Position numbers and translations under genes: made by a program
The notes under the pieces: generated by a model
The model's input: only the letters and a program-made list of their open reading frames with translations
Databases searched by the model: none
Told to the model about the DNA's origin: nothing
NCBI GenBank assembly: GCA_009746045.1
Contig: RPFO01000027.1
Span: 2,650,733 to 2,714,732, forward strand
From: Mesostigma viride
Taxonomy: Eukaryota > Streptophyta > Mesostigmatophyceae > Mesostigmatales > Mesostigmataceae
Length of the DNA stretch: 64,000 bases
Reading direction: 5' to 3'
Shown: piece by piece, positions 25,841 to 63,745 of the stretch
Position numbering within the stretch: the stretch's first letter is position 1
Layout: each line of letters begins with the position of its first letter

Positions 25841-25905
<65 letters not shown>

Positions 25906-28900
25906 AGGTAGGGGGGGGGGGGAGGAGACTGAGAATGGGGCCGTGGTGAAGCCGAGCCCACACAGGAGCATAGCCACGAGCATACAGACAACATAGGAGC
26001 ATAGGCAGGATGAGAGAGAGGGGCGAGAGGGAAACAGTGGCTCGAAGGACTTGGGCACGGAACAAGCGGTCGCACGTCCTCAACGAGGAGCGTCACAATC
26101 CAAGCCCAGATGAACACCCAAGCCCAGACGAACACCATTCACCAGCCAAACCCACCTGCATTACCCATCAGTACGCCCCCCCCCCCAACCAACATTCTAG
26201 GAATTCCTTTAGCACGTAACAAGTGATACTACGGCAAGTATCATAAAAAAACAGCATCATCCGATGAAGCATGCAGGCAGATGGCAGGTCCTCGCTCCGG
26301 CCCAAGACAAAGCATCCCATGGCGTGCCCCACCGGGGGAGGAATACAGACCCAGGCGTGCCCTACAAGCACACAGCACGACCAAGCACACGGCGCACGAG
26401 CAAGCACGCAAGTCACAAGCAACCACATGGCGTACCACCGCTGCCTTGCGTGACAGGTCAGGGCCCAGCTTTGCGCTGTCCTTGCGCCGGCCCTTGCTTC
26501 GCTCGTCCAGAAAGTAAGGCTCCACCAGGCACGCGGCTTCCACGTCGCGAGTCACGCCGCCCAGTACCCCTGGGTGGGGTGGGGGCGCATGCCATGGAGT
26601 TGAGACGCAATCATTAAATCAATAGCCGTGAAGGGATCCGTGATATTGCTTGCAGGCTTCCTTAAATTCAAGAAAAATCATGTATATTCCCAAAGCAAAT
26701 GCTGCGTTTCCTCCATGGTCACTATCCCGCGGGGCACTGTATCATTCCCCACCCTCCCCTCACCAAGGTTCTTCCACTTGACGCCGCGGTCGGCAAACCC
26801 CACGCGCTGCACCAGCTCCGCCTGAATGAGGTGCGCCAGGTCCTGGTCCTGTGGATAATTTCATAGCGTGTAGTGTGTAGTGTGTAGTGTGTGGTGTGTA
26901 GTGTGTAGTGTGTAGTGTGTAGTGTGTAGTGTGTAGTGTGTAGTGTGTAGTGTGTAGTGTGTAGTGTGTAGTGTGTAGTGTATAGTGTGTAGTGTGTAGT
27001 GTGTAGTGTGTAGTGTGTAGTGTGTAGTGTGTAGTGTGTAGTGTGTAGTGTGTAGTGTGTGGTGTGTAGTGTGTAGTGTGTAGTGTGTAGTGTGTAGTGT
27101 GTAGTGTGTAGTGTGTAGTGTGTAGTGTGTAGTGTGTAGTGTGTAGTGTGTAGTGTGTAGTGTGTAGTGTGTAGTGTGTAGTGTGAAGTGTGAAGTGTGT
27201 GTAGTGTGTTGTGTGTTGTGTGAAGTGTGTGTAGTGTGTAGTGTGTAGTGTGTAGTGTGTAGTGTGTAGTGTGTAGTGTGTAGTGTGTAGTGTGTAGTGT
27301 GTAGTGTGTAGTGTGTAGTGTGTAGTGTGTAGTGTGTAGTGTGTAGTGTGTAGTGTGTAGTGTGTAGTGTGTAGTGTGTAGTGTGTAGTGTGTAGTGTGT
27401 AGTGTGTAGTGTGAAGTGTGAAGTGTGTAGTGTGTAGTGTGTAGTGTGAAGTGTGAAGTGTGTGTAGTGAGTAGTGTGAGTGTGTAGTGTGTGTGGTGGT
27501 GGCGGCGGTGGTGGTGAGAGGAGGCGGAGGCAACCGCTTGGATGAGGTGCGTCAGGTCCTGGTCCTGGGGCGTGGTGAGATGGGGATGTGAGAGGATTGG
27601 TATGGATGTGCCAGCTGCCAGCATACAGGCAGGCAGTAAGCAGGGGAACGGGTGCCACTGGTCTCGTTGGGTGGGTGGGTGGGTGGGTAGGGGGGGGGGG
27701 GCGCGAAGGGGGATCCGTGCCATGCCCCCAGAGACCATGACACGCGGCCATGTGCGAGTTCACTGGCTCCGAACGAGCAGAGGGGCAGCCACTGGCACGT
27801 TTGGGATGCTGGCCCACTAATGTGCATTGCAGGTAGTGAGCGCACACGTGTAATGGACATTTTGGATGAGGGGGGATGGTTCCGCGCCACGCGGCTGATC
27901 CATGCTTAGTTGGTTACCCCTGCTGCATGGAATTGATGATGGTTGAACCATGTTGTCCTTTGCTGCAGTGGCCTCGCACCGCAACCCCTTCTCCTGTTGT
28001 GCATCACAAAGTCCCCCTTACCATCGTATGATGACTATTAAGCTCGGGTGTGTAACACCGTCTGAGAAAGAATGATTAAGTACCCCTATTTCTCCCCCCC
28101 TTCCTGATCGCCCCCTGACCCACCTCCCTTGCCACGTCCACACCAACCAGCGTCTTGCTTTGTCTCACCTAGACTTAGCCCAGAGTCAGCCCACCGCCAG
28201 CCCACTCTATATAAGAAGGTATGCAAGAGTTGTTCCTGTCCCTACTTGCAAGAGTTGCTCCTGTCCCTACTTGCAAGAGTTGCTCCTGTCCCTACTTGCA
28301 AGAGTTGTTCCTGTCCCTACTTGCAAGAGTTGCTCCTGTCCCTACTTGCAAGAGTTGCTCCTGTTCCTACTTGCAAGAGTTGTTCCTGTCCCTACTTGCA
28401 AGAGTTGTCCCTGTCCCTACTTGCAAGAGTTGTTCCTGTTCCCACTTGCAAGAGTCGTTCCTGTTGCTACTTGCAAGAGTTGTTCCTGTTGCGCGGTCCA
28501 ATTGTATAGCTGCTCTCACTTTCGCACTGTATCATCCTCACTTCATCGATCTATACCCTCATCCCACCTCTCTCGTCGCATTCACTACCCCCACCTCTCT
28601 CGACGCATTCCCCTCACCTCACCTCTCTCCTCTTATTCCCCTCACCCCACCTCTCTCGTCGCATTCACGTCCACAAGCGTCTCGCTGCCCTGCGCCTCCC
28701 CGTCGTGTCCGTTGTGGTGGATGGACACAAACAGGTTGTGTCCCTGGGCGCGCCGACCGCGCTCCGGAAGCCATAGGGGGGGGTCGTGCTCGCCATACCT
28801 GGCAGCAGGGGGTGGTGGCAACAGGTGGCGGGTGGTGGTTGGTGGTTGGTTGGTGGCAGGTGGCGGGTGGCGAATGGAGGGTGGCGGGTGTCAGGTGACA

Positions 28901-31900
28901 GGTAGCAGGCTCAGGTGTCAGGGGCACTAGCGAGAAGTGGGAGCTGACAGGTGGCATGTATGCTGGCCACCTGTGGAGCAACTTTGGCTCAAACCTGCAA
29001 CCGTAGACATTGACGCGCTCGTGTCCACCTGGTAAAATGCGTAGAATCCCATCTGGAAAACACACGATGGTGAGACCTGCTCCCATTGCAAGCACCTCTC
29101 ACCTGCGCACGCTGGTGGTGACCCGTCGGCTTGGAAAGGGCCGGCCAGGGCAACACGGGAGCGCGGCCCCTCAAGAAACAAGGAGAAAAAGCAACGGCAA
29201 CAAATGACAGCCACGTGTATGCGCCACCCACTTGAACACGCTATTGCCCTAGCTCAAGCACAAGGTCATGCCCAGCTACGATCATATATTGCCCTATCTT
29301 AAGTTGGACCACGCGCAACCCATTCGAGCATGTTAATAACATGTCTCCATGACAACCACATAAGAAGCCACCCACTTGAACACGCATTCGCTCTGTTCAT
29401 CATATTCTAGTAGCAAGCGCCACCCCTTGGACACGCTGACGTGTTATCTAAAACATGAGCGGTAGCAACCGCCACCCACTTGAACACGCTGACGTCGGCG
29501 CCGTCCTTCTTGAGGTCGTGCGCCAGCGCCTCGGATAACACGCAGTTGAGGTCGTACTCGTTCAGGCCGTTGCCCTCGCTGCCGCGCTGCCACGTCAGCG
29601 CACGCGCATGCCAAGACATTGCATGTGGCTTATTGTAAGTGCGCACATTACATGCGGGTTGTTGTAAGTGCGGGCCTTCCACGTGGGTTATTGTAAGTGC
29701 TCGGCATACGGTGGTGATGAGGGCCCGTGCCATGCTTCGTGCGGGGTGGGGGCCCATGCCAAGGAGTGACGACAGCAACATTAGCCGCAAGGGGCACACG
29801 CGTGGGTGGGGTGCGTCTGCGAGTTTCTCCCCTTTTAAAAACATGCGACCACGCATCCCTGACTCGCTTGCCATCCCACATTATGCATGGAACCGCCATA
29901 GCCCCAGTGCAAACAGGTATATAACAGGTATTTATGTATGTATATATCCACCACCACCGCCAGCAGCAAGCCGGTCATCCGTGTTACCGTCACCCCCTCC
30001 AGGTTGAGCACCGCACCACCCCCAGCGAGCACTTGACCACCTACCCCCAACAGCGACCATCAGGCCACGAGGCATCAGGCCACGTGTACGCAACGCCGGG
30101 AGACAACAGCATGACGATGATGCAGCACCCGCCCCCTTATATCATTATTGTTTATAAGTTATTTTTAATGAGCGTACCCACATGCCCCCTTGTGAGAACA
30201 CACAAGCCCACGTGGGACGACACCACGGCACAGGCACGCGCCTGGAACCCGAGCAAGCGCGCACGCTCTCTTGCTTGTGCACTACCACACGAATGTACTA
30301 TCGCTCTCTTGCTTGTGCACTACGCATGTGCTATCCAGCAACTGCATTCTCTGGCACCTTCTGCAGGTCATTTGCGCGGCACAAGTGGCGCCACCCACCT
30401 CAAACCCGAGCGGGTGCGCGCCGTGGCCCACGTCGATGGCCACCCTGAGACCTGCCAGGGGCTTCCTGGGGGGCGGGGGCTGTCGCTCAGCCGCCACCGA
30501 GGTCATCGTGGGCAGCGAAACCTCACGTGTGCTCACGAACAACAAGGGCAGCCGGTCGGCCGCCGAAGACGAGCCGCCACTGCCCCCGCTGGAGCTCATG
30601 CCATCGCTGCTGATGGCGTGCGCGGTGGCGGCAGGGGGGCGTGAGAAGTGGGCGGGGCCACCCACGCTCTCCCCCGATGCGACGATTTCCTGCGGGGGTG
30701 GTGGGGTCAGGGGTGGAGGTCCACCGTCAGGAGGTGGAGGTCAAAGGTCAGGTGTCGGCATCAGGCCTCCGATGTCAGGAATGTGGAAACCATAACAACT
30801 ATAAAAACTTCACCTGCCGAATGTAACATAACATATTCTGGCTATCAGCACGGACCAGCCGAATGTAACTCCATGAATAGAATGACAAAAAAATGGCAGC
30901 ACAATTTATATTACAATAATTCCAATAAATTTCGAGACTAGGACGGCATCCTAAGGTCAAGCGCCAGGTTCCAGGTTGCAGGTGCCAGGTGCCAGGTGGG
31001 AGAGAGGACGTCAACATGCGTGTGGCCATCATTATAAGCGTGGTTATTGTGATGGAACTCCAGCATGTGGCCACTATGCCAAGATAGTATTGCATGGCTA
31101 GTCACGTTGCGATCGTGGTCGATGGAATGGGAGCTCGTTACCATGGAAAGTTAGAACGTTGGAGCGTTGCCATGGAATGTAGAATGTTAGAGTGTTGCCA
31201 TGGAATGTTAGAATGTTAGAGCGTTACCATGGAAAGTTAGAACGTTGGAGCGTTGCCATGGAATGTTAGAATGTTAGAGCGTTGCCATGGAATGTTAGAA
31301 TGTTAGAGCGTTGCCATGGAATGTTAGAATGCTAGAGTGTTGCCATGGAATGTTAGAATGTTAGAGCGTTGCCATGGAATGTTAGAATGCTAGAGTGTTT
31401 CCAAGGAATCGAATCTCGCTTCCCTTCCCCTGGTGCGACGCCGTGGCTAGCAGGGGAAGGGAAGCAGTGGGAGGCAGGGCGTGCGAAGCGGGGCGGGAGA
31501 TGGCGGGAAAAATGCACGGGTGCAAGGGCGGTCATAGCAGTACATGTGTAGCCGCCAAGGGAAGAGAATGGCCCACACCACCAGGGCGGTGTCAAGGGAC
31601 AGGAGCAATGTGAGCACCTGCGTGCGCCATGCATGGTCAGGCAACGGAATACCCAATGGCCAGGGCCATGGTCTTGCTGCCGATTGGGGGCAACCAAGAT
31701 GCTGGCAAGCACTTGGCCGTATCAGCGAGGTCATCGCTGACATCATGGGACACGCGCGCAACGCGGCTCCAGATGCATCTACAGCTTCGCAAGGCAATGT
31801 CCTTGTTGGATTGTGAAAATGTTGCATCCCTCCTCCCTCACATGCCTCATCCCTTACCCCTCACACCTCCTCATACTCCCAGGCTAGCTGATGGCCACCA

Positions 31901-32539
31901 GGCGGCGCATGCCATGATGACACAATGCCATTGTTACAGAATGCAACTCCGATGCATATCATATCAGAAAAGTAACAGCCAATATTTCTAACCGTGTGAG
32001 CCCCACGCCGAACGAAACATAGCTCGCTCGCTTGTACAAAATACCCAGAATCATCTACACTGCTATCAGATCGCGCCAGCAGCCTTCACGATTTTTCACA
32101 CGAGCACATTGCTAAAGGTGCATTTGTAGACAGCCCCATGCAAAGTCCACAATGACCAGCTGCAATTCTGATGAAAATCTCTGATGGAGCACCACTGATG
32201 GAAAGCACCGGATCCACTGCGATGGCGAACCTACCTCATACTTCTGCCGGGAGAGCGCCCCAAAATAGCCCTTGGCTGGCTCGATGTCATTCTTGACCTG
32301 CCATCGGGCGATGGCTGCTTTTGTGCTGTCGCCAACGTAGCCGCTAATGAGGCCGTCGGCCAGCTCACCTTGCTTGACTAGGTACTGCTGCAGGCAGCTG
32401 ACGTCGTGGCCTTCGTCGCCAAAGTCCAGGTCTCTCGTAAAAATGCACGCCTCGCTGATATTCCCGCTATCCCAATCCACGGGGAGGCTTCCATTGCCAT
32501 CATAATCTGTCATTCTAGATTCAGGGATCCTGGTGATCA
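22416..32539 (-). CDS. Peptidoglycan hydrolase: PG-binding, Amidase_3 and SPOR domains
   Basis: Ten exons whose phases all agree: 32539-32235, 30689-30399, 29586-29480, 29052-29002 (least certain), 28798-28651, 26848-26764, 26569-26436, 25264-25206, 23999-23936, 22532-22416; about 453 residues. Exon 1 carries a peptidoglycan-binding domain (DEGHDVSCLQQYL, YVGDSTKAAIARWQ). The zinc amidase domain follows with all four hallmark residues: His in DVGHGAHP, Glu in GLNEYDLN, His in SIHHNG, Glu in LVEPYFLD, plus the RGVK motif. The last two exons form a SPOR domain (EVQVASFR, then EYDRATALQEKLYTHGFDA), which binds denuded glycan strands. The enzyme should cut the N-acetylmuramoyl-L-alanine bond. The true first exon (signal or transit peptide) lies upstream of 32540 and was not found. 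Introns are packed with minisatellites and echoes of exon edges. Confidence 0.87.
22533..23935. other. Last intron of the hydrolase gene
   Basis: Splice phases let the two SPOR exons join directly across this 1.4-kb span. A minus-strand open stretch at about 22830-22990 looks protein-like but has no defensible splice sites. Confidence 0.5.
24240..24345. repeat. Tandem repeat of about 27 bp, four copies
   Basis: Units share ACTCATGACCCGGTACGCAC. They lie in the intron between the exons at 25264-25206 and 23999-23936 of the hydrolase gene. Confidence 0.85.
25846..25902. repeat. (TG)n microsatellite
   Basis: About 28 pure TG dinucleotides in an intron of the hydrolase gene, followed by a G run at about 25911-25921. 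Confidence 0.97.
26866..27512. repeat. Heptanucleotide array (TGTAGTG)n, about 85-90 units
   Basis: Nearly pure, with a few variants: TGTGGTG, TATAGTG and TGAAGTG, the last clustered at about 27180-27230 and 27410-27475. It sits directly before the exon that starts at 26848 (minus strand). A second copy of that exon's edge lies on its far side at 27538-27576. It is not a telomere repeat. Confidence 0.97.
27538..27576 (-). repeat. Duplicate of an acceptor site and exon start of the hydrolase gene
   Basis: On the minus strand this reads CCCCAG then GACCAGGACCTGACGCACCT, matching the real acceptor and exon start at 26850-26821 except for one transition within the first 24 exon bases. The heptamer array lies between the two copies. 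Confidence 0.88.
28222..28495. repeat. 25-bp minisatellite, about 11 copies
   Basis: Units of TTGCAAGAGTTGTTCCTGTC plus CCTAC, with T/C variation at a few fixed places. Located in the hydrolase intron between the exons at 28798-28651 and 26848-26764. Confidence 0.95.
28563..28668 (-). repeat. Four echoes of an exon end and donor site
   Basis: Plus-strand starts at 28563, 28590, 28619 and 28646, spaced 27-29 bp. Each carries CCCACCTCTCTCGTCGCATT or a close variant. The rightmost copy is the real end of exon 28798-28651 with its GTGGGG donor; the other three lie inside the intron. Confidence 0.88.
29223..29496 (-). repeat. Four echoes of an exon end and donor site
   Basis: GCCACCCACTTGAACACGC occurs at 29223 and 29367, a degenerate form at 29419, and the real one at 29471. 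On the minus strand this is GCGTGTTCAA followed by the donor GTGGGTGGC of exon 29586-29480. Copies 3 and 4 share additional bases on both sides, including GTAGCAA and GCTGACGT. Confidence 0.9.
31138..31400. repeat. 29-bp minisatellite, about nine copies
   Basis: Units of CCATGGAATGTTAGAATG followed by TTAGAGCGTTG, in the first mapped intron of the hydrolase gene. Confidence 0.94.
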
Positions 32540-34200: not shown

Positions 34201-37200
34201 ATGCCCAGATACTCCGTACGATTCCCTGCGCAGTTCCCTAGGTCTTATCCCCCCGAGTGCCTCCCATTCTTTCGTACGCCGCACCTGCTTGGTGCCCATC
34301 TGTGCATCATGCGTCATGTGGCCCACGGCTTGCTCCGCTGCGTGAGGAATGGGCTTGCTCCTGGCCGTCGGCTGAACGGTTGCAGGGAGCAGCAGCAGCT
34401 CAAGGCGCTGCTGAAGACCAGCGACGACGTGCCGTGGCTTGCGTCGCTGCATGCGGCACGTGGCAGCGCCGGTACGCATGAAGAGCGTCACACGGTAGCG
34501 CGTCATACTCTAGCGGCTACCCCCCTAGCGGCTACCCCCACCTAGACAGGCCCATAGCTTAAATAAACGGAGACGTGGAGTGGCATGGGTCCTTGACCAC
34601 GCCAAGGGTTTGGCAATCGCAGTGGGTGCTCCGCAAATATTACATCCGTTTAACCCACAATCCACAATGGACCATCGATGATGGATCACTGATTGTTGAT
34701 CATCGATGAGTGATAATTGATTATTGATCGTTGATGATTGGTCGTTGATCCGCTGGGCGCTGGTTGAGTTGTCTTCGCCAGAGCGGCGTGCCGCCATGTG
34801 TGCCCGTCCTGCCATCCCAGGTGGTCACTTTACAGGGGGTTTTCAAGGGACTGATGCCGGCACTTTGCAGGAAAAAGATGGCGGTATACTGACTGGTCCG
34901 GCGAAGGGGCTTCCACTTCACCGAGTTATTCTTCAGCGCAACACTGTTCCCTTAACACGTTGAGGACCACGGACCGAACCACTTAGAGGACCACTAAGAA
35001 CCAATAAGAGGACCGCACCGAACCACTAAGAGGACCACTAAGAACCAATAAGAGGATCACTAAAAGAACCGCTAAAAGAATCTCCATCCATTTCATCGGG
35101 CCTACTACCCTGCTGTGTGACAGGCTTGCCCCCGCGATTACCGTGGTACAGGAAAAGGCAGGGTAGGGCCTGCTGGCATGTCCCACACTTGTGCTGGCAT
35201 GTCCCACACTTGTGCTGGCATATCCCACTATTGTGCTGGCGACGGGCCAGATGCGGTGTCTCTGCTGGCAGCTGCATCCTCTGGTGTCCGCGGCGGTGAG
35301 TGGTGATCAACCTGGTCTCTGGTGCTTGGGTGCCCTGCCGTCCGCGCAATGTCCCCATCACACGCTCCTATGTGCTTGTCTATGGGTTGCCTACCTGTTT
35401 ACTGTACTGACCTTGCCGAAGGCATGCGCACCGGTGGCCTGTGTTGCTTGTACTGACCTTGCCGAAGGCATGCGCACCTGTGGCCTGTGTTGCTTGTACT
35501 GACCTTGCCGAAGGCATGCGCACCTGTGGCCTGCATGTCTCTTGCGTGCCTCGGCCATCCAGCGCGTGATGGGGAACCGGTCCCCCTAGACACTGGCCCC
35601 ACCCCGGCCGGCTCGTGCGAGCAACTTCGGCTCGTAGGGGGGCTGGACATCAGCTTCGCGGTGACCACCGATGCGCCTGCGTGGCCCGATCAGGGGGACC
35701 CAGACCAGGGGGGCAGTTGCGGTCATGCGACCAACGGAATGGTTCAGGGGGCCAGCGGTGTTGCCACACAACGCCACAACCAGGGTGCCAGCGGTGGTGA
35801 TGGTCCCAGCCATGGCTCTCACAGCAGCAGCCATGAGGGTGCCAGCCATGGGGACACGCCAGGTGGCGAGCAGGTGGCCAGCGGCGGGCACCCACCGGCC
35901 ACGGTTGCGTGTGCAGCATTAGCAGTGCTCTCGTACCCTGGTCTGCAGCTGCTGCATGTGGTCACCCGGCAGCTGCCCATCACTGTGCCCTACCTGCCAG
36001 GCTTCCTCGCGTTCCGGGAGGTGTGTGCGGTCACGACACGAGGGCCGATGGACGGGGGTTTGCTTCCGCACAGCCTTGGGGTTGGATGCCATTCGTCTTT
36101 GATGGTCGCATTCCATTTGTCTTTGATGGTGGAATTCCCTTTGTCGTAGGTATCACTCCTGGTTGGCGTGGGTGATGCGTCGGGGTTCATGGTGATGGTC
36201 GACGTGCTGGATGCTGCACCCTGGTCATGGCAGGTGATGTAATCTGTTTGAGCCCTAGTATTGGCCGCGAAATACATCAATGTCTTACTCCTACTGCTTT
36301 TATAGTGCCCAAATTCCGTATTTGCCCCCCCATTTATCCCCCTCTTGGCAGCAGATGCGTGTACTACCTGTGCTACGTGTCCTACCTGTCCCGAAACCTG
36401 GCACTGCCCTCGTTCATCACCAACCCTCGCAAGCGACATCGCCGGGTGACCAGGGAATGCGGTGGTGCCTGCTGGGGTCGCTGGCTGCTCCTTTTGCTAG
36501 GCACTTGGCAACCGCTGGCTGCTCCTATTGCTAGGCACTTGGCACCCGCTGGCTGCTCCTTTTGCTAGGCACTTGGCACCCGCTGGCTGCTCCTTTTGCT
36601 AGGCACTTGGCACCCGCTGGCTGCTCCTTTTGCTAGGCACTTGGCACCCGCTGGCTGCTCTCACAACAGTGGCCGCATCTCGCCCACGTGTCAGTGCGGC
36701 AAGTCCTGGCCGCATGCCATGTGGCTCCCAGGGAAGTAGGCCACAGTATCTGTAGCAATAGGCATGAGCTACACATGGCAATATGCAAGTTAAACAGCCG
36801 ACTAGTGATCCGATAGCAGGCGCACTAGCGGGGTCTAAGTGTATAAAGCTAGGCACCCGGCACCCTCCCATGCCGACTGGGCCACTCCATTTTCATTTTA
36901 AACGCGTTGCATGGCACCCGAAACGCCTGCTGGCTCCGTTTCCCGCCGACAAGTTATGGTCACCGCCGGCAAACATCCATCACCGTTGTCCAATCCCATG
37001 GCATCCCTCGTACTTGTCTCCCGCAGGCCCCCGCGGCGCTGGCCCTGTTGCAGCAGCTGCGGAACGATCGGCCGGACCTCTTCCCGCAGGTGGTCTTTGT
37101 CGACGGCAACGGCATGCTGCACCCGAAAGGTGGGCTATGGCATGATGCAGCCAACAGGCATGATGCGCCCGATAGATGGGCTGCTGGCAGTGATAGCCCA

Positions 37201-40200
37201 ACCAAACTATTCATACTCTCGGCATGGCACGAACTCCTCCCCTCCCCTACCCTCATTCCCACGTTTTTGGAACTATTTCCTCCATCTGTTGAAAAGCTTG
37301 CCGCGCAACCATCGTCTTGATCCCGTTTTATCCCCTTTCCCCTTGCCTCTTGGCCCGCGCTCCCTCCCCTCCCCCTCCCCCTCCCCCTCCCCCTCCCCTC
37401 CCCTCCCCTCCCTCCCCCTCCCCTCCCCTCCCCCTCCCCCTCCTCCCTCCCCCTCCCCCCCCTCCCTCCCCCCCTCCCCTCCCCCTCCCCCTCCCCTCCC
37501 CTCCCCCTCCCCCTCCCCCTCCCCTCCCCCTCCCCCCCTCCCCCTCCCCCTCCCCTCCCCTCCCCTCCCCCTCCCCCCCCTCCCCTCCCCCTCCCCCTCC
37601 CCCCCCCTCCCCCTCCCCCCCCCTCCCCTCCCCCTCCCCCTCCCCCTCCCCTCCCCCCCTCCCCCCCCCTCCCCTCCCCCTCCCCCTCCCCCTCCCCGCT
37701 AGAGAACACGCTTTGCCCTGATCCTCTGCTCGCCTGGGAGGCTCCCAGGCACCTGCGTGGACGCACGCTCTTCCCCATCACATGGCTGTCATCCCACCTC
37801 GGATGTGCCCCGTGACCCCTCACATCCCATTCCGCTTGTGGACACTCTCCATGCCCCTGGGCGGTCTTATCTCCCTAGGGTAGGGGATACCAGCCAGATC
37901 CCCCCCCAGGTCTCTCTCTTTACTTATTCAAGTGCATCACGTACTCCAAGGTGTGGGGCCAGTTGATGGTGCGCTGTGGCACCCGCATTGAGGCATGTGG
38001 CTAATTATGCATCAGTTGTAATGGACAAGCGCCTGAAGGCACCCAACAAAGCGCTGTGGCTATGCCAGGGAGGTGCGTGGCCAAGCCATTCATCAATCAT
38101 CGTGCTTCCTTCGCGTGCACATAAGCAGATTTGTGATGATGGCCGCAGGCGGCCTCATCCCAGGACTATGGTAGAGTATCTGGTGCAGGAAACCGTTGCT
38201 GCGCTTGAGATGCGTTCAGGAAGGAAATGTGCTATGCTTGTGTGAATTCAATGGTCCACACGCCGCCATTGACGTGCTCTTGCTGACCAGCTGAGAAAGC
38301 AGTTGTCAAGCCGTGGCCTCCCTTCCGTCATCGTGGCCCCATTCACCCTGGCGGCAGACTGGGCATTCTGTGGCCAGCAACAGGGGGGACCACAATCGCA
38401 CAGAAGGGGGCCTCGTTACATGGCCGCTTCCTAGGTGCTGCGGCTCCCATGTTCTCCCACCCCGTGTGCATGTTTGTGCGGCATGCTGGCATCCCCGGGG
38501 GGTCGTTGAGGCATCCACCGCATCATCACTTGGTTGGTCGCCTGGCATGTCGCAAGCTTTTCACTGGTTGTTGATTACTGGTGAAGCCACCTCACTGGTT
38601 ACTGGCGCCTGCCTCCCATGGCGCCACCCCATTCCTTGTAAACCAGCCCCTACCCCTACTGAAAGCCACCCATTTCTTGCAACCGCCGTGGGCTTGCGTG
38701 CGACCATCCTTGACGAATGACGGCCCCTGGCTTGCGTGCGGCAGGGTTCGGCTCCGCTTGCCACATCGGCGTGCTGGCAGACGTCCCCACTATTGGCATC
38801 GGGAAAAAGGTGCGTTGCTGCTGCCGCTGTGGATCCATGTGCATGATCACGGGGTGGGCACCTTGCATGATCATGGGGTGGGCACCTTGCATGATCATGG
38901 GGTGGGCACCTTGCATGATCATGGGGTGGGCACCTTGCATGATCATGGGGTGCGCACCTTGCATGATCACGGGGTGGGCACCTTGCATGATCACGGGGTG
39001 GGCACCTTGCATGATCATGGGGTGGGCACCTTGCATGATCATGGGGTGGGCACCTTGCATGATCATGGGGTGGGCACCTTGCATGATCATGGGGTGGGCA
39101 CCTTGCATGATCATGGGGTGGGCACCTTGCATGATCACGGGGTGGGCACCTTGCATGATCATGGGGTGGGCACCTTGCATGATCATGGGGTGGGCACCTT
39201 GCATGATCACGGGGTGGGCACCTTGCATGATCATGGGGTGGGCACCTTGCATGATCATGGGGTGGGCACCTCGCATGATCACGGGCACCGTGCATGATCA
39301 TGGGGTGGGCACCTTGCATGATCATGGGGTGCGCACCTTGCATGATCATGGGGTGGGCACCTTGCATGATCACGGGGTGGGCACCTTGCATGATCATGGG
39401 GTGGGCACCTTGCATGATCATGGGGTGGGCACCTTGCATGATCACGGGGTGGGCACCTTGCATGATCATGGGGTGGGCACCTTGCATGATCACGGGGTGG
39501 GCACCTTGCGTGATCATGGGGTGGGCACCTCGCATGATCACGGGGTGGGCACCTTGCATGATCACGGGGTGGGCACCGTGCATGATCATGGGGTGGGCAC
39601 CTTGCATGATCACGGGGTGGGCACCTTGCGTGATCATGGGGTGGGCACCTTGCATGATCATGGGGTGGGCACCGTGCATGATCATGGGGTGGGCACCTTG
39701 CATGATCACGGGGTGGGCACCTTGCGTGATCATGGGGTGGGCACCTTGCATGATCATGGGGTGGGCACCTTGCATGATCATGGGGTGGGCACCTTGCATG
39801 ATCATGGGGTGGGCACCTCGCATGATCACGGGGTGGGCACCTTGCATGATCATGGGGTGGGCACCTTGCATGATCACGGGGTGGGCACCGTGCATGATCA
39901 CGGGGTGGGCACCTCGCATGATCATGGGGTGGGCACCTTGCATGATCATGGGGTGGGCACCTTGCATGATCACGGGGTGGGCACCGTGCATGATCATGGG
40001 GTGGGCACCTTGCATGATCATGGGGTGGGCACCTTGCATGATCACGGGGTGGGCACCTTGCATGATCACGGGGTGGGCACCTTGCATGATCATGGGGTGG
40101 GCACCTTGCATGATCACGGGGTGGGCACCTTGCATGATCATGGGGTGGGCACCTTGCATGATCATGGGGTGGGCACCTTGCATGATCACGGGGTGGGCAC

Positions 40201-43200
40201 CTCGCATGATCATGGGGTGGGCATGATCATGGGGTGGGCATGATCATGGGGTGGGCACCTTGCATGATCACGGGGTGGGCACCTTGCATGATCATGGGGT
40301 GGGCACCTTGCATGATCACGGGGTGCGCACCTTGCATGATCATGGGGTGCGCACCTTGCATGATCACGGGGTGCGCACCTTGCATGATCACGGGGTGGGC
40401 ACCTTGCATGATCATGGGGTGCGCACCTTGCATGATCACGGGGTGCGCACCTTGCATGATCACGGGGTGGGCACCTTGCATGATCATGGGGTGCGCACCT
40501 TGCATGATCACGGGGTGGGCACCTTGCATGATCACGGGGTGGGCACCTTGCATGATCATGGGGTGGGCACCTTGCATGATCATGGGGTGGGCACCTTGCA
40601 TGATCATGGGGTGCGCACCTTGCATGATCATGGGGTGCGCACCTTGCATGATCATGGGGTGGGCACCTTGCATGATCATGGGGTGCGCACCTTGCATGAT
40701 CACGGGGTGGGCACCTTGCATGATCACGGGGTGCGCACCTTGCATGATCACGGGGTGGGCACCTTGCATGATCACGGGGTGCGCACCTTGCATGATCATG
40801 GGGTGCGCACCTTGCATGATCACGGGGTGCGCACCTTGCATGATCATGGGGTGGGCACCTTGCATGATCACGGGGTGGGCACCTTGCATGATCATGGGGT
40901 GGGCACCTTGCATGATCATGGGGTGGGCACCTTGCATGATCATGGGGTGGGCACCTTGCATGATCACGGGGTGCGCACCTTGCATGATCATGGGGTGGGC
41001 ACCTTGCATGATCATGGGGTGGGCACCTTGCATGATCATGGGGTGGGCACCTTGCATGATCATGGGGTGGGCACCTTGCATGATCACGGGGTGCGCACCT
41101 TGCATGATCACGGGGTGGGCACCTCGCATGATCATGGGGTGCGCACCTTGCATGATCATGGGGTGGGCACCTTGCATGATCATGGGGTGCGCACCTTGCA
41201 TGATCATGGGGTGGGCACCTTGCATGATCACGGGGTGCGCACCTTGCATGATCACGGGGTGGGCACCTTGCATGATCATGGGGTGGGCACCTTGCATGAT
41301 CATGGGGTGGGCACCTCGCATGATCATGGGGTGGGCACCTTGCATGATCATGGGGTGGGCACCTTGCATGATCACGGGGTGGGCACCTTGCATGATCACG
41401 GGGTGGGCACCTTGCATGATCACGGGGTGCGCACCTCGCATGATCATGGGGTGGGCACCTTGCATGATCATGGGGTGCGCACCTTGCATGATCATGGGGT
41501 GGGCACCTTGCATGATCATGGGGTGCGCACCTTGCATGATCATGGGGTGGGCACCTTGCATGATCACGGGGTGCGCACCTTGCATGATCACGGGGTGGGC
41601 ACCTTGCATGATCATGGGGTGGGCACCTTGCATGATCATGGGGTGGGCACCTTGCATGATCACGGGGTGGGCACCTCGCATGATCACGGGGTGGGCACCT
41701 TGCATGATCACGGGGTGGGCACCTTGCATGATCATGGGGTGGGCACCTTGCATGATCACGGGGTGGGCACCTTGCATGATCACGGGGTGGGCACCTTGCA
41801 TGATCATGGGGTGGGCACCTTGCATGATCACGGGGTGGGCACCTTGCATGATCACAGGGTGGGCACCTTGCATGATCATGGGGTGGGCACCTTGCATGAT
41901 CATGGGGTGGGCACCTTGCATGATCATGGGGTGGGCACCTTGCATGATCATGGGGTGGGCACCTTGCATGATCATGGGGTGGGCACCTTGCATGATCACG
42001 GGGTGGGCACCGTGCATGATCACGGGGTGGGCACCTTGCATGATCATGGGGTGGGCACCTTGCATGATCACGGGGTGGGCACCGTGCATGATCACGGGGT
42101 GGGCACCTTGCATGATCATGGGGTGCGCACCTTGCATGATCACGGGGTGGGCACCTTGCATGATCATGGGGTGGGCACCTTGCATGATCATGGGGTGGGC
42201 ACCTTGCATGATCATGGGGTGGGCACCTTGCATGATCATGGGGTGGGCACCTTGCATGATCACGGGGTGGGCACCTTGCATGATCACGGGGTGCGCACCT
42301 CGCATGATCACGGGGTGGGCACCTTGCATGATCATGGGGTGGGCACCTTGCATGATCACGGGGTGGGCACCTTGCATGATCATGGGGTGCGCACCTTGCA
42401 TGATCACGGGGTGGGCACCTTGCATGATCATGGGGTGGGCACCTTGCATGATCACGGGGTGGGCACCTTGCATGATCACGGGGTGGGCACCTTGCATGAT
42501 CATGGGGTGGGCACCTTGCATGATCATGGGGTGGGCACCTTGCATGATCATGGGGTGGGCACCTTGCATGATCATGGGGTGGGCACCTTGCATGATCACG
42601 GGGTGCGCACCTTGCATGATCACGGGGTGGGCACCTTGCATGATCATGGGGTGGGCACCTTGCATGATCATGGGGTGGGCACCTTGCATGATCATGGGGT
42701 GGGCACCTTGCATGATCACGGGGTGGGCACCTTGCATGATCATGGGGTGGGCACCTTGCATGATCACGGGGTGGGCACCTTGCATGATCACGGGGTGGGC
42801 ACCTTGCATGATCACGGGGTGGGCACCTTGCATGATCACGGGGTGGGCACCTTGCATGATCACGGGGTGGGCACCTTGCATGATCACGGGGTGGGCACCT
42901 TGCATGATCACGGGGTGGGCACCTTGCATGATCACGGGCTGGGCACCTTGCATGATCACGGGGTGCGCACCTTGCATGATCACGGGGTGGGCACCTTGCA
43001 TGATCATGGGGTGCGCACCTTGCATGATCACGGGGTGGGCACCTTGCATGATCACGGGGTGGGCACCTTGCATGATCATGGGGTGCGCACCTTGCATGAT
43101 CACGGGGTGGGCACCTTGCATGATCATGGGGTGGGCACCTTGCATGATCATGGGGTGGGCACCTTGCATGATCACGGGGTGGGCACCTTGCATGATCACG

Positions 43201-46200
43201 GGGTGGGCACCTTGCATGATCACGGGGTGGGCACCTTGCATGATCATGGGGTGGGCACCTTGCATGATCATGGGGTGGGCACCTTGCATGATCACGGGGT
43301 GGGCACCTTGCATGATCATGGGGTGGGCACCTTGGTGTGTCAAGGAGACCTTGGTGTGTGTTTCAACGCTTGTGTTGCCTGCCGGGCTGTGCTTGTTGAT
43401 GGTTGTTGATGGATGTGTGGGCATGGCTTGTCCATTTGTGTTTGTGTGCTGGCAATCCTTCTCCCTCCGACCCCCCTGCGTCCCCCCATGCCCCACGTGC
43501 TTCGGTTCTCTCCTGCCACATGTCGCTCCACGCTACCCTGTAAGTTCATGGATTGCCTTTAAGTTAACGTGCCTCCTCAGTCCTCCCACGTGCCGTCTCC
43601 ATCCAACCCCCCTCGCAGGGTTCTCCCTCGCCCTTCGTCCCCAAAGCTCTCCCTCGTCTCCTTTATTGAACACGCCTCGTGCACTGGACAAGCGTGCGGC
43701 AGCACGCGTCCATAGAACCAAAGCAACGTCAAGCCAACCACGTTTGCAGGGGGTTGCCTTGCAAGGCGGTAGAATTATTGTCCTCATGCTTTTCAAACAC
43801 GGGGGCGAACATGGCAATGATCCTCGCGTGTTTCCCCCCCAGTGCTTCCCCATTTTAAAAAATGGAATAGTGGCCCTCTGCAGTTCTTCCGCATCAATCT
43901 ATACTATATTATGCTCCTTCCCCAGTTCTCCCACGTTTACTTGAACTACTACCTTGTAATTCTAGGTTCATTCCCCGCGTCTTCCACATTAACTTATCAA
44001 CTTATGTCTATGTCCTTACAAAGTTCTTCCACAATAACCCTAAGTGTGTTGGTATGTTCTTTGTGCAGTTGTTCCATGTGGACGGCCTGACCAAGGACAT
44101 TGTGCGGTCGCGCGCCGTGGAGTCCAACCTGGCAGGGGGCGACGCGTTCCCCCTGGTGGGCGATTCAGGGGCCACCTGGGGCATGGTGTGTGTGCGGCGC
44201 TGCAGAAAAAATGGGCAGACATCACCCAGGCATGGTGTGAAGGACTTGATTTTTCTTTTAAATAAAGAGCTACAGGCGCTGTAGAAATTGAAGGGTATTA
44301 AGGGGCGCAGCTTCGGTATGAAGCTCTTTGAAAATTTTTAGAGAAAGGACAAATTACTGCTTTCCATATTGATACAAAAATATCCAGACTTGTAACTACC
44401 GGGATCGCAGTAGACAGCGAGCGGTGGAGGAATAAGAAGAAAAATAATGAATTGGGGAGTGCTAGGAATGCTGTGAATGGACGGTGGTGAGCACCATGAT
44501 GGTGCTCGACAGCAGTGCTGCCCTTCCCCTTTAAAGGGCCTACACACATCGCCCTGGCTCCTTTGTCGGCTTGTGGAGGTATCTGTGGAACGTTGCAACA
44601 AGGTTTGGGTGGGTGGCCAAACCCAAAATGTAAGCTCACCCTCATGACCCCCGCCACCCCCCTTATTGAATGCATGGGTCGGCACCCCCCTTATTGAATG
44701 CATGGGTCGGCACCCCCCTTATTGAATGCATGGGTCGGTGGGAACTGGCAAGTTGGTAGCAGGTGTCAGCATCCATAGCACCCAGAGTTTGGCATCCCTG
44801 CTTCTTTGCCGCAGTGATCATTAGTCCATGATCAGGAATTTTTTATTCTTATTAGCAGTACATGTTAATTGTTGACATTGCCACCATGGCTCTTGTGGGT
44901 GTCTTGTATTGAATTATAACATGACTCCGTGGGGACAGTGCGTGTCTCTTATTAAAGATCTATAACACCCCCGCTCTCATCCTGGAACCCTCCACCTCAC
45001 TCTATGTTCACTATGTCACTCTGTGTTCACACCATGTCAGTCTGTGTCCACTCCATATCTATGTTCACTCCATGTTCACTCTATGCCATTCTATGTTTAC
45101 TCTATGCCATTCTATGTTCACTCTATCTTTGCCATTTTATATCACTCGATGCCGTTCTATGTTCACTTTATGCTACTCTATGTTCACTTTATGCCAATCT
45201 ATGTTCACTCTATGCCGTTCTATGTTCACTTTATGCCAATCTATGTTCACTCTATGCCATTCTATGTTCGCTTTATGCGACTCTTATGTTCACTCTATGC
45301 CATTCTATGTTCACTTTGTGCCACTTTATGTTCACTCTATGCCACTCTGTGTTCACTCTGCATTCACTCGGCTCCCGCGACCCCACCAGGCGCTGCGCAG
45401 CAACGCCGCGTGTTCCCCGGCCAAGCCCCTGTTTGTGTCGGTCGGCCACCGCTTGTCCCTGGCGTCCGCGCTCGCCCTCACGCGTGCATGCTGCAGGCAC
45501 CGCGTGCCGGAGCCCATTCGGCAGGTGGGGGGTGGGCTATGCCAAGTTATGATGTGAGGGCTCGACTTAGTTCCCGAGTCGGTGCGCGGGTGGACGTGTT
45601 TTGTGGAGTTGTGCCCCCCCCCCTTAGTTTACCGGATTGAGGATTCATGCGACGGGCATTATACGTGGACTTGCTGAAGTCATGAGTACGTGCAGTGTGG
45701 GGACGTGAGGCGTGGAAACGTCCGTCCCCAAGGCCATGCGCAGCGCGCGTCGTTGTGGGGGCGTGAGGCGTTCGTTGTGCCGTCCCCAAGGCCATGCGCA
45801 GCGCGTTGTTGTGGGGGCGTGAGGCGTTAGTTGTTCCGTCCCCACCATGCGCAGCGCGCGTCGTTGTGGGGGCGTGAGGCGTTAGTTGCTCCGTCCCCAA
45901 GGCCATGCGCAGCGCGCGTCGTTGTGGGGGCGTGAGGCGTTCGTTGTGCCGTCCCCAAGGCCATGCGCAGCGCGCGTCGTTGTGGGGGCGTGAGGCGTTA
46001 GTTGTCCCCAAGGCCATGCGCAGCGCGCGTCGTTGTGGGGGCGTGAGGCGTTCGTTGTGCCGTCCCCAAGGCCATGCGCAGCGCGCGTCGTTGTGGGGGC
46101 GTGAGGCGTTAGTTGTCCCCAAGGCCATGCGCAGCGCGCGTTGTTGTGGGGGCGTGAGGCGTTCGTTGTGCCGTCCCCAAGGCCATGCGCAGCGCGCGTC

Positions 46201-50486: not shown

Positions 50487-50490
50487 TTAA

Positions 50491-57969: not shown

Positions 57970-58257
57970 TGGTGATGGTGAGGGAGCTCAGTAGCTAGCG
58001 TGCTGCAGCAATGGGCAGGCCCATTGCCGCCACATCTGCAGCAAGGGGTGTCACGTGCTTCTCGAGGGCTTCCTGAAGGATGGAGCCTACTAGACATGAT
58101 ACACCTTTATTGACTCATTGCTTCACCGACTCACCGACTAGCACACTCGTCGCGTTCTAAGTTCAGAGTTCAATTCAATTCCGACTCGCATGCGATCGAC
58201 CGAAGTAAGCAACTTCTAGTCCGCATCGGTTTATCGACAAAGAATTATGTATGTCGT

Positions 58258-59190
58258 ATAATAAGGAAGGCTTATATACGTCGACTTCTCCGTCAAATCT
58301 CAGACCGGGTTTCGAAACAAACCACGAACGCCGTAGATGCAGACAGGAGGAAAAAATGGTTTCGACTAAGGACTTAGGTTTTTTGCAAAACTTAGCCCTA
58401 ACCGGGAGAAGACAAGTCTGCGGGGGCTGAGATTAAATAAGAGGTACCTTGAAATTAAATAAGAGGTGTGCCTCTATGAATATATAGTTTTGGAGGCGAG
58501 ATTCTGTTGGCGTTAAGTCGTAGTATTGTACGATTGATAAATTGGTAGTGCATTGGTGGTACTGCACGACGGTATTGGACGGAGATCCCGGAATCCCGGT
58601 CTGGCAAGAGCATCTCACGGGTATCTTACATCTCACGGGTACATCTCACGGGTACACGACGCGGCACGACGTTGTACAGCAAAATGGCTCGCAGAAAAGC
58701 TAGGAACCTAGGTGACTATTTGGCGCCGCGTCGGTCGTGACGTTGTTTACTCCGTTGGATCTGCATCTACGGCGTTCGTGGGTTGTTTCGAAACCCGGTC
58801 GATGAGATTTAACAGAGAAGTCGGGTATATAAAGGATCCTTGTTAGACAACCTTGAAAATGTACCAAATGAATTAAACGGCTTGACATGTTGCCGTCCAA
58901 TACTACAAGTTAACGCCAATCGAACCTCGCGTCCAAAAATATATCTGGATAGAGGCATGTCTCTTATTTAATTTCAAGGTACCTCTTAATTAATCTCGGG
59001 CCCCGCCTCGGGCTATAAGTTTGCAAAAAAAAAAGTCCGGGCAAAGGTGAACAGGAGGAAAAACAGATCCAACGGTGCAAACAACGGGACGACCGCAGCA
59101 GCGCTGAATTGCCTCGGTTTCTTTGTTACGAGCCATTTTACGATGCTGCGCCGCGTCGCGTACCCCAGCCCTTTTCCACCTCACAGCACG
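58258..59190. repeat. Cluster of interleaved inverted repeats
   Basis: The block at about 58258-58350 is inverted at about 58760-58850, the block at about 58430-58540 is inverted at about 58885-58992, and the block at about 58655-58760 is inverted at about 59045-59165. Shared pieces include GCATCTACGGCGTTCGTG and TTAATTTCAAGGTACCTCTT. Because the order of the first two blocks is kept while each is inverted, a single hairpin does not explain it. Identity between arms is about 75-90%. There is no convincing coding sequence. Confidence 0.75.
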
Positions 59191-61207
59191 GCACTAATGG
59201 TACTTAGTGCGATGCCAGCAGCGACACACAGCATGGATCAGTTCATCCACATGTCCCGCTAGGCACCCAAGCGACACCAAGTGTCCCAACGTTGTTATTC
59301 CTATCGCATGATTGATTTCCCGTTCGGGCGCACTAATTCCCTTAGTTGTGCCCGCTGCAAGCGAGACAAGGGATTGTTGAATCGGTCACGGCAATCGAAC
59401 ATGCTGGCGTTGGTTACGGCAGTCGCGCGTGTCCTACTTAGATTGGGTGGAAAGAGTCACCTTCGCGTCACCCTCGTGGAACGTAGATCGGATTGGCGTT
59501 CAGTAAAAATGGGCAGGCAACAGCCGGCGTAATACCAATTGCGGTCAACGGGCCGGGTCACTGAAACTTTGCAATCCTGCAACAAGCAGACGTCTTGACG
59601 TCCTGAGTATCATTCCATGTCATTCCTGTGAAGTCATTCTGCCACAGTCTCGCCCACCACCACCTTGTCCTCCGCAAAAGAATCGCATATGTGACACATC
59701 AACTATCCCGTAGACTCTTCCTGCAAAGGCCACTTCCCTCACTGCATGCCACATCAACTGTACGGCCGGCGATTCTCGCTCGTCTTATTATGTCACACCA
59801 ACCTGGAAACCTTTTCCCCTCCAAAGCCCAAGGACAGAGCCAACGACGGTGTAAATTCATTTGGCCACTCACGTGAAGGGTAACCGATTGATCGAAAGGA
59901 AATGCCTTCAGGAAAAATCTGTCACTCTGTCGACCGTGATGATTGAATAATTCGTGGGGCTGCTGCGTAAGTCTCCCACAACACAAAATCCCAACACTAT
60001 TGGCCAGATTTGAGTATAGTACCTCGGTTGCTGCCTTGGTCCATTATGCGTCATTAGCGAGGCTCTGGGGCTTTCGCTTACCAGTCACACTCCCAAGAAG
60101 GCCCGGCCTTGCCATCTTCTCCATCCTCTTTTCAAAGACCTCTCTCCGATTTCCTACCCGCCAAACGCCAAGACCAGATCACCTAAGAGAAATAAACACA
60201 GTATAGGAAAATCCCCTTTGTTCAGCCATGGTAAATCAACAATAATCATAGCTGCGTTGGCCTGGCCAACTGCCGCACCGGCTTGCGGCTTCAACGACTA
60301 AGGACGGAGCGGCTAGCCCGCCCGAGAGCTAGCCCGAACGGTTAGGGTTCTTAAGCGAGTTTATGTGGGAGCGCTCAATGTGGGGTTTCCCCCGATTGGC
60401 ACAGGGGATTTGTTTAGAATTATGGAGTTCGGGTACCTTGTGTTGCCATCAGTTTTGCCAATAATTGTTTTATTAGTGCGTCCATGGTGCGTCTTCAATC
60501 ATGTCGCCATGCGGCATGCAGTCACCTCGCCACGTCCCTGACTGCCCAGTCCACAGTACAGTGGAGCTAGCATTCTTTCTTTAAGAACAAAAAAAAAATC
60601 TTGTGTACATCATAGTATTCGAACATCTTGCTAGTTGTGACAACTTCACCAGCCACGTCAGTACACGTGGCGGGCCAAGTGCCACCCATCCACCATGACA
60701 AATGACAGTTGAAGCCAAGGCGTGAGGCACGGTTAGCGGAGGGCAGTATCCTAGGCCGTAACCTGGAAACTCGGTTTTACTGACATGGACACAAAATAAA
60801 TCCATTTGACAGACCATATTACAGGCAGACTATCTCTGCTGCCCATGTGCGGCGTGGGCAACAACAACAGGCTGACTGCTCGCAAGGGACGCAGCCTCGA
60901 GGAGCGGCCAAGTTGAAAAACAAAGGCAGGCACAGTATAGATACTGGAACCACATCACCCTAGGCATGGCGAACGGCGCGCACAGGCGGTTTGGATAGCC
61001 AAATGCTTCTGTTGTGTGGGTTGGCTTCTCATATTTGAATCCTTATGAGTTATGACCGGCTCTTACGGCGACGTCCAGCTGTCGGACCTGTATGGCGGCC
61101 GCCTTAAGAAAATCAGTGCAGGTCCGCGCCCGTAGTCACAATATACACTTGCTTGTCGTCCCAGTAATTTGTAGGTCGCAGCAACACAGAGCAGCAATCT
61201 GTTAGCC
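59191..61207. other. Non-coding region upstream of the CNNM gene
   Basis: No supported gene. The last few hundred bases should contain the CNNM promoter; I see no clear TATA box. Confidence 0.4.
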
Positions 61208-63586
61208 ATGGTGGATTTTGAAGACGCCTTCGACGCTTGGGAGAGGACACATAACAATGTTACGTGCGATGTTATATCGGCCACTCAGCTGCTTTGCATG
61301 GGCACAACGTTCGACAAAGAGCAGCGAGATGTACCGGGGACCGACCGATTTTACATCGACATTGCCGCCTGTGTATTTATGGTCTGCCTTGCCGGGATAT
61401 GTTCTGGCTTAACCCTAGGGTAAGTCACTCAAACCAAATATTTATCTTGTCCCCCCGAAACTTCTTCGAACTTGACTATGCAATCTATGTGAGCCCGTGT
61501 ATACGTCAGCGTGGAAGATATGGTGGGCCAAGGCCTCTCCGTGATTTGGGAAAAGATGCAGGCCAAGGCCAAGTGGGCCCAGGTAGTGGAAGACAATGCC
61601 CCCCCTGCTGCGGGGAAGAAATGTATTTGCTCCCGTGGGAAGCATGCCAGGCGTGACTGCTCGGGCCTGGCCCCATCTAGATAGAATCGACTGGTAGGAA
61701 TGTGCGCACCCCTCCCTCCCTCCCTCCCTCCCTCCCTCCCTCCCTCCCTCCCTCCCTCCCTCCCTCCCTCCCTCCCTCCCTCCCTCCCTCCCTCCCTCCC
61801 TCCCCTCCCTCCCTCCCTCCCTCCCTCCCTCCCTCCCTCCCTCCCTCCCTCCCTCCCTCCCTCCCTCCCTCCCTCCCTCCCTCCCTCCCTCCCTCCCTCC
61901 CTCCCTCCCTCCCTCCCTCCCTCCCTCCCTCCTCCCTCCCTCCCTCCCTCCCTCCCTCCCTCCCTCCATCCATCCATCCATCCATCCATCCATCCATCCA
62001 TCCATCCATCCATCCATCCATCCATCCATCCATCCATCCATCCATCCATCCATCCATCCATCCATCCATCCATCCATCCATCCATAGGGGTTAATACTCC
62101 GTGGACCCCCAACGGGAGCACGGATTTTATTAATTAATTCATTAATACGTAAGTGTCATTTCCTGCTATTTGTTGCCTTCGAGATTCCTGCGACAGGCGT
62201 GCGTCCTATAAGCGTGTTCTCGCTCGAACACTTTCTTTTTTCTTTCGTCCTGTGGTTACAGACTTCCGTTGAGTGTTTCATGATTGCACATTTATGCCGG
62301 TGCCGTCGTGACTGCTGTTTAGCGCAAGATTCAAGTGTGCTTGCAGTCATCCTGAAAACCAACCTGTGAAGCACCTGGTGGCCGCCTCTTCTGTGCAGTA
62401 AACATGTATGCCAACACGTTTGTTGCTTTCTGATCTGACGACAATGCATGCCAAGGGCATACACAAGGTGGCTACTTGTGCAGACACGTATTCTCACAAC
62501 CGTATACCGGTGTATTGGCCAAGGGGGACACCAGTTGGCCACAGCAAAGTGGCATCGGTCGATATTCCCGCTGGATCACCCCTTGCCGCGCCGCTCCTCA
62601 GTCTGGACCTCTTACACCTGAACACTTGCACCCAAACGCACTGCGCTCTCTTCTTCCCGCCTCATTGTCCAAACAACATAAACGCTACCCTTCCCCCCTG
62701 CCCAGGCTGCGTTCTGTCGAGCCTGTGGCCCTGAACACCCGCACAAAGCCATGCCCTCGTCTGACTCTACACTACAGAGGGGTCGCTTTTCCCAGTTCTA
62801 GCATGTTTGCCACGCATGCCCTTTTCTTTCCATGTGTCTCGTGCCCCAGGCTGCTGTCTCTCGACCACCAAGACCTGAACACCTGATTGCGCATGCAAAC
62901 ACAACACTCCCCCTTCTTCCCCCCCTATTTTTCGGAACGAGCAGTACTCCCCCTCCCCCCCTGCCCCTTGCCCCAGCCTGCTGTCTCTCGACTCCATGAA
63001 CCTGAACCTTTGCATGCAGCCACATCCTCTTCCAAGTCACAGATCTCAGTCCCCTGTCACACCCACCCCACGCCAGGCTGTAGCATCTGGACCCAAGAAC
63101 TTAAACACATGCCCACATAGTTGAAACTCAGGTGCCCTTTAGCTCACATTATGCTTGCCACGTCCCTTCTCCTCCCCCCCTGTCTCCTCCCCCCAGTCCC
63201 CCCTCTGCCTCTGGACCCCATGAACCTGAACATTTGCACACACACACACACACAGTAACTACGTCCCCTTCTCCCCCCCCCTAATGGTCAAACAATCGTT
63301 ACTCCCCTCCCCCCCCGATCATCCACCCCACAACGTCAGGCTACTGTCCCTGGACACCATGAACCTTGAGGTCATCCTCAAGAGTGGCTCGCCCTCCCAG
63401 CGGTCGCACGCGCAGCGCATCATGCCGCTGGTCCGCAACCACCACCTGCTGCTGTGCACGCTTCTGCTGGCCAACGCGGCCGCCATGGAGGCGCTGCCCA
63501 TCTTCCTGGACCGCCTGGTGGGGCCTCTGCTGGCTGTCCTGTTCTCTGTCACCGCGGTCCTCATCTTCGGGGAGGTGCTGCCGCAG
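61208..63586 (+). CDS. CNNM/DUF21-family ion transporter, 5' part (continues beyond window)
   Basis: Exon 1 (61208-61419, donor GTAAGT) and exon 2 (63340-63586, acceptor GTCAG, donor GTGGGT) join in phase 2 to give [18 protein letters not shown]. This is the start of the DUF21 (CNNM) transmembrane domain. Family blocks follow: [29 protein letters not shown] and [14 protein letters not shown]. Members move magnesium or other cations across membranes and carry cytosolic CBS domains, which must lie beyond base 64000. The first ~45 residues are a short extracellular or lumenal segment before the first membrane helix. Start chosen at the ATG preceded by GCC. The single mapped intron is 1.9 kb and full of repeats. 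Confidence 0.93.
61709..62084. repeat. (CCCT)n followed by (CATC)n tetranucleotide array
   Basis: About 65 CCCT units with two one-base slips (near 61804 and 61931), switching at about 61967 to about 29 CATC units. It lies in the first intron of the CNNM gene. The open frames it creates are not genes. Confidence 0.97.
62593..63245 (+). repeat. Six echoes of the acceptor site and start of CNNM exon 2
   Basis: Sites at about 62598, 62703, 62848, 62975, 63075 and 63197 each have a C-rich tract, CAG, then variants of GCTGCTGTCTCTCGAC and ATGAACCTGAAC. The real one is at 63337 (CAG then GCTACTGTCCCTGGACACC). Spacing is 100-145 bp. Reading frames in the echoes are mostly broken. Confidence 0.85.
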
Positions 63587-63745
63587 GTGGGTGTTTGTGC
63601 TTGCGATGGGAGCGTGTGATGGCAGGTGCTGCCGCAGGTGGGTGTTTGTGCTTGCGATGGGAGCGTGTGATGGGAGGTGCTGCCGCAGGTGGATGTTTGT
63701 GCTTGCGATGGGAGCGTGTGATGGGAGTCGCTGCCGCATGTGGTA
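63572..63745 (+). repeat. 51-bp tandem copies of the exon 2 end and donor site
   Basis: The last 15 bases of CNNM exon 2 plus its donor (GTGCTGCCGCAG then GTGGGTGTTTG) repeat at 63572, 63622, 63673 and, degenerate, 63724. The first copy is taken as the real donor because it keeps the DUF21 frame. Use of a later copy would change the protein by insertion. Confidence 0.9.

Follow-up and report, generated by a model that had tools for sequence, protein, structure and literature searches.

Why should the end of an exon, splice site included, recur inside the intron next to it? The window analysed here, a stretch of 64,000 nucleotides (C335:2650733-2714732) in a 440-Mb genome of 2,243 contigs, raises this question in three genes, and the original prediction held that ordinary minisatellites should not prefer splice junctions. 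Tandem duplications of the intron-exon boundary have been described in lancelets as "mirages", in the Adh3, globin, TnC and PGBD5 genes, and the excerpts of those reports describe regular splicing as undisturbed (PMC3087553, PMC3902484). Among the exon ends that we tested, about a fifth to a quarter are copied, splice site included, in the neighbouring intron. These are, quite probably, for the most part degenerate minisatellite-like tandem duplications whose units happen to span the exon-intron border, with relics at the edge that outlast the rest by one-sided decay.

Materials and methods

Three gene models were built from the sequence of the window, an Amidase_3 gene on the minus strand and, on the plus strand, an endonuclease V gene and exons 1 and 2 of a CNNM gene, and these yielded 35 exon edges. 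Together with 67 edges from kinesin genes and 13 from the CNNM gene and its paralog on contig C1668 they make up the test set of 115 edges, 80 of which come from outside the window, all within the same 440-Mb genome. The outside edges are based on profile matches and splice scores and come from a single gene family and a single pair of paralogs. The donor of amidase exon A8 and exon A9 are uncertain (the frame does not close) and were retained in the set, as was one donor edge of the CNNM paralog that is off by one base. A further small amidase exon, placed at 29052-28995, was rejected, as the frame closes without it.

Of the first 30 kinesin loci, 23 were inspected one by one; the longer L066 and L067 took the place of L041 and L062, and L036-L039 and L052 were left out. 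With eight longer loci included, the kinesin set held 54 exon matches and hence 108 ends. Of these, 67 ends, belonging to 23 loci, entered the analysis, 32 of them as pairs with a neighbour and 35 singly; the ends left out lay at profile ends or had no splice site above the cut. One pair was added by hand at L066, where the acceptor fell below the cut, one pair was dropped at L067, and two pairs at L070 have a poor profile fit. Thirty kinase loci were left out of the edge set. On G000:C1107, 22 kinase-domain matches lie on one strand over ~660 kb (651917-1310254), most of them with open frames of ~1,160 residues; this cluster is a local gene expansion.

An edge was called copied when an ungapped match spanned the junction with 5 bp or more to either side, lay no more than 1,500 bp away and scored at least 14 (match +1, mismatch -1); a score of 18 served as the stricter cut. 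For the shuffled control, flanks were shuffled with dinucleotides preserved. The main control consisted of each edge's own flanking introns, sampled at intron points.

Results

Copied edges in the window

The eukaryotic gene at 22419-32516 (minus strand) combines Amidase_3 with PG_binding_1, and its last two exons give a SPOR match below threshold; the gene possibly encodes a plastid peptidoglycan hydrolase. The three edges for which extra copies had been claimed in this gene were all recovered. Exon A3 (29480..29586), placed by its in-frame join to its neighbours and an Amidase_3 match, has its donor edge copied into the next intron, where the stretch 29222..29479 holds three degenerate copies at about +55, +104 and +248, for the four occurrences predicted. 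At exon A4 (28651..28798; gene model, domain match) the fourfold donor edge corresponds to a 28-bp tandem array of 4 copies across the donor (28556..28666, Tandem Repeats Finder), with offsets of 28, 56 and 83 and a further diverged copy at 527. The acceptor edge of exon A5 (26764..26848; gene model, domain match) occurs twice, since 6 bp of intron and 31 bp of exon are repeated at 27534..27570, 716 bp upstream of the real acceptor, and a TAGTGTG heptamer array without assigned strand (26864..27492, Tandem Repeats Finder) separates the two. The donor at 25774 of exon A7 (25774..25836, gene model) had been overlooked; its edge is copied at +50 and +137 in the intron stretch 25617..25773, the +137 copy without a GT. 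All of these features are on the minus strand, apart from the heptamer array.

A second overlooked case lies on the plus strand, in the endonuclease V gene, where the donor at 37129 of exon V3 (37027..37129; gene model, domain match) has a copy of its edge at +46 (37157..37182) that has lost the GT. The two weaker cases proposed nearby fared less well. The edges of exon 44069-44185 are at chance level, both scoring 11, and scores of at least 12 arose in 9.9% of shuffled trials. Before 35880 the local repeat is real (scores of 15-18 at 35865-35880), but it marks no exon edge, because it lies inside the coding exon 35638-36020 of the gene model. Most of the intron after exon 38745-38809 of this gene is occupied by ~188 copies of a 24-bp unit (38840-43334, 95% matches, Tandem Repeats Finder), an array that begins 31 bp past the donor.

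At exon 2 of the CNNM gene (63340..63586, plus strand; gene model, domain match) both edges are copied. Upstream of it, a degenerate array (62588..63339, plus strand) that is common to the paralog consists of six units of 100-144 bp, each with a copy of the acceptor edge that includes ~29 bp of exon. The predicted seven occurrences of this edge are borne out by the six units, spaced at 114, 144, 127, 100, 119 and 144 bp, with the reservation that two of the six copies are weak: four reach a score of 11 (in 100 shuffles the mean was 0.51 and the maximum 3), while the other two score 10, which alone is not above chance, and were identified through position and alignment. The donor edge was found in the predicted four occurrences, in a 51-bp array (63587..63743, plus strand, Tandem Repeats Finder) whose unit combines 17 bp of exon with 34 bp of intron and is present in two near-perfect copies and a broken one. 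With its near-identical units, this array in the window looks like a recent expansion. Within CNNM intron 1 there is also a long CCCT array (61710-62083, 98%, Tandem Repeats Finder).

The CNNM paralog on C1668 (four exon pieces with 298 codons in all; dN 0.067, dS 0.64) carries three copies of the exon 2 acceptor edge and three of the donor edge in its introns. The match between units of the two paralogs reaches past the exon-derived part, over 92 bp at 80% identity on the acceptor side (E 7e-12) and 36 bp at 92% on the donor side (E 6e-8), and the other intron parts of the compared stretches gave no match. The acceptor copies have 65-93% mutual identity. Length instability between alleles belongs to the definition of a mirage, and within the one assembly copy number differs between the two paralogs. 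From these sequence comparisons, the simplest reading would be that both edge arrays are older than the gene duplication; conversion between the paralogs is a possible alternative. A tree that placed the two real acceptor edges apart from the copies (support 0.999), and so spoke against re-seeding from the exon, was withdrawn because exon sequence past the copied part had been included. With the copied 32 bp alone the real edges do not group and the tree of edges and copies resolves nothing; copies may have been re-seeded from the exon at CNNM exon 2. The loss of this tree makes tandem duplication with one-sided decay slightly less probable and seeding from exon ends slightly more so. Tandem repeats are prone to assembly error, and the copies could for that matter be an artefact of assembly, but most of them have diverged, and such copies are present on other contigs as well (the CNNM paralog on C1668 and the kinesin genes), and we regard this explanation as extremely improbable.

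Elsewhere in the window, transposase-like reading frames at 10374-13524 have SWIM, ZSWIM RNaseH-like and MULE matches, all below curated cut-offs, and the first of these frames partly recurs at 14-1045. A long ATTA array (100%, Tandem Repeats Finder) lies at 5343-5420.

Comparison with shuffled sequence, introns and exon interiors

Run on all 115 edges, the shuffled control placed the copies above chance: 28 edges were copied at a score of at least 14, compared with 3.6% in shuffled sequence, and 21 at a score of 18, compared with 1.0%. In these 28 edges the copy contains both the exon and the intron side of the real junction, both sides being scored, and for 26 of them the best copy is on the intron side. 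In the window, 9 of 35 edges were copied at the cut of 14, against 27% of intron points (largest arrays and microsatellites excluded), 8% of points inside exons and 7% of points between genes. In the kinesin genes 16 of 67 edges were copied, and the figures for intron points and exon interior were 28-30% and 8%.

The supposed preference for junctions therefore holds over shuffled sequence and the exon interior but not over introns as a whole. From the edges' own introns, 36.7 copied edges were predicted at a score of 14, where 28 were observed, and 31.7 at a score of 18, where 21 were observed (P of so few 0.009). The excess over the exon interior, the control of the original prediction, is most simply geometry, since a duplication has to cross the edge; we dropped this control in favour of the flanking introns because exon sequence can reach an intron through local tandem duplication only by way of the edge.

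The lack of an overall excess over introns speaks against a process specific to edges that would copy exon ends into introns, for instance through insertions templated during break repair close to splice sites, or through R-loop-linked damage at donors. Such a process would agree with the finding that position -10 in the exon was copied at 22 edges and position +10 in the intron at 6 (P=0.004), but around strong donor-like sites within introns there is a comparable local increase (0.44 at the site against 0.20 ten bases in). On this and the evidence of the following sections we consider it unlikely.

Arrays, degraded copies and decay

Arrays detected with Tandem Repeats Finder cover 32% of the 37,847 intron positions. 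If such arrays were blind to gene structure they would cover edges as often as intron points; instead they cover 7 of the 115 edges, against 26.6 expected from the edges' own introns. Counted by distance, arrays cover 6 of the 115 at the edge itself, 14 at +20, 26 at +60 and 17-20 at +100 to +200. The shortage at edges is about three- to fourfold, part of which may be technical, array ends being hard to place. The scarcity of intact arrays at edges would suggest selection against fresh ones. In the three genes of the window, 41% of intron bases are in tandem arrays, compared with 5% of the remainder outside those genes.

Our first reading, that edges simply equal introns, was dropped, as it had mixed intact arrays with degraded copies. 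Outside arrays, copies were found at 22, 17, 16 and 14 of 108 edges at cuts of 14, 16, 18 and 20, with 13.7, 10.2, 8.4 and 6.3 expected (P = 0.014, 0.024, 0.008 and 0.005; ratios 1.6-2.2, and 2.3 with all introns pooled, unmatched). At the cut of 18, donors beyond the window contribute 7 of 32 against 2.6 expected (P=0.0097), an excess larger than the decay model gives and one that favours edge-specific copying. At the same cut there was no clear excess among acceptors beyond the window (5 of 43 against 3.9), among the 33 such edges of the window taken by themselves (4 against 1.8, P=0.10) or among the 30 best-called kinesin edges (4 against 2.6, P=0.26).

In simulated tandem pairs, with three indel rates and two cut-offs, the readable life of a copy was 1.61-1.71 times longer at edges. 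Constraint alone would account for a 1.6-1.7-fold difference, which counts against an edge-specific process, and the 16 copied edges against 8.4 expected are near this value; one-sided decay would be the cause of the excess outside arrays. The copies have the corresponding form. They are short and exon-heavy, with 79-90% matches over the final 15 exon bp and a return to background ~15 bp into the intron. Donor-edge copies comprise 19 bp of exon and 8 bp of intron, while copies at random points of introns reach equally far to both sides (median 38/38 bp, cap 40). Exon-heavy copies that end soon past the splice consensus could also come from edge-specific copying, but exon-heavy donor copies are what one-sided constraint predicts.

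Repetition of whole units

At 21 edges a copy lies no more than 330 bp away. One of these cases is a gapless tandem, and in 13 of the other 20 the intervening intron is also repeated (P<0.05 each; combined P 1.6e-13), so that 14 of the 21 consist of tandem minisatellite-like units, as mirages do. Repetition of the intervening intron was not significant in the remaining 7 (the A7 donor, L067, three edges at L069, L053 and the acceptor of the CNNM paralog). In drawn alignments, to which no significance is attached, the match continues through the unit for the A3 and V3 donors and loosely for the A7 donor, and fails for the kinesin locus L067, which resembles a 24-bp copy of the junction with unrelated sequence between.

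Junction-only copying as a general rule, a candidate taken from ungapped profiles, was rejected on this gapped test. With the intron between junction and copy repeated in 14 of the 21, most cases are degenerate tandem units across the border. The same count weighs against edge-specific copying, in favour of which L067 can be cited. That exon ends, chiefly donors, are true seeds, from which repair or replication would repeatedly copy the final 15-30 exon bp and the splice consensus into the intron as a main route of intron growth here, has in our estimate only a small chance of being correct. Replication slippage, one of the origins originally proposed, fits the whole-unit repetition in the 14 cases, as would unequal exchange. 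The other proposals, intron loss and gain and the repair of R-loops, are called for by no finding and contradicted by none.

Decoy splice sites

The copies were said to create decoy splice sites, and such sites are present: a GT or AG is kept in 37 of 45 detected copies (score of at least 16), and 28 of the 45 come to within 2 bits of the true site's score, with detection biased toward intact sites. Use of the CNNM donor decoy at +51 would add an in-frame stop. Copies could accordingly be retained for a function, as decoys that tune splicing or feed nonsense-mediated decay, and both CNNM paralogs do carry copies of both edges. The preserved GT and AG are, however, what a detection favouring intact sites would return, the CNNM acceptor copies have drifted apart, and lancelet mirages do not disturb splicing according to the excerpts of their reports (PMC3087553, PMC3902484). 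We judge a function of this kind to be very unlikely; the copies would be neutral and the decoys ignored in splicing.

Discussion

Our preferred reading, tandem duplication across the border followed by one-sided decay, would proceed as follows. Slippage during replication, or unequal exchange, would in all likelihood fill introns with local tandem arrays, the breakpoints falling anywhere. A unit that spans a splice junction would be tolerated, because one complete junction still works, and a duplication wholly within an exon usually would not. Selection would then freeze the used exon end and its splice site while the copies and the remaining intron drift, and a pair at an edge would therefore decay from one side only. 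Edge copies would stay recognisable ~1.6-1.7 times longer than intron-intron pairs, and the end product would be short relics at edges, of ~20 bp of exon and 7 bp of intron. Exon ends probably appear favoured because selection keeps one copy readable.

A minisatellite in a human interferon-induced transcript, from the 6-16 gene, reportedly gives multiple splice donor sites, to judge by the title of that work. The closest relatives of what we describe are the lancelet mirages, with which our cases share minisatellite-like units over a splice junction, on the donor or acceptor side, of 10-160 bp and with many copies carrying an AG or GT (PMC3087553, PMC3902484). As far as the excerpts go, mirages were reported gene by gene, whereas here 115 edges were sampled and the copies are frequent, mostly degenerate and found in both members of a paralog pair. 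Measured against those excerpts, the present case would be a further instance of what is called a mirage in lancelets, in a different eukaryote and with approximate frequencies added. Tandem repeats at exon-intron boundaries in human segmental duplications likewise have border units of ~30 bp, and splice structure is altered there; in the portion of that report consulted they are recent, variable in number and supported by transcripts, while ours are mostly diverged copies known from DNA (PMC2812944). Intron gain in a potato RdRp gene, as excerpted, shares tandem duplication as the origin of repeats that bear splice sites, but our copies sit in existing introns and show no new intron (PMC4974935). 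Among the literature matches listed, no title or opening of an abstract described the copying of exon edges in any alga or plant, and the nearest were this potato case and a tandem-repeat survey covering plants and green algae (PMC3887541).

Our results supply a null model: apparent hot spots at exon ends need to be corrected for one-sided survival, since junction copies outlive intron copies when selection freezes one partner. If about one in five exon edges carries duplicated splice sites, often equal in strength to the real one, this genome would lend itself to studying how the spliceosome chooses the right site among near-identical neighbours, and it would offer many stages of the proposed path from junction duplication to new introns.
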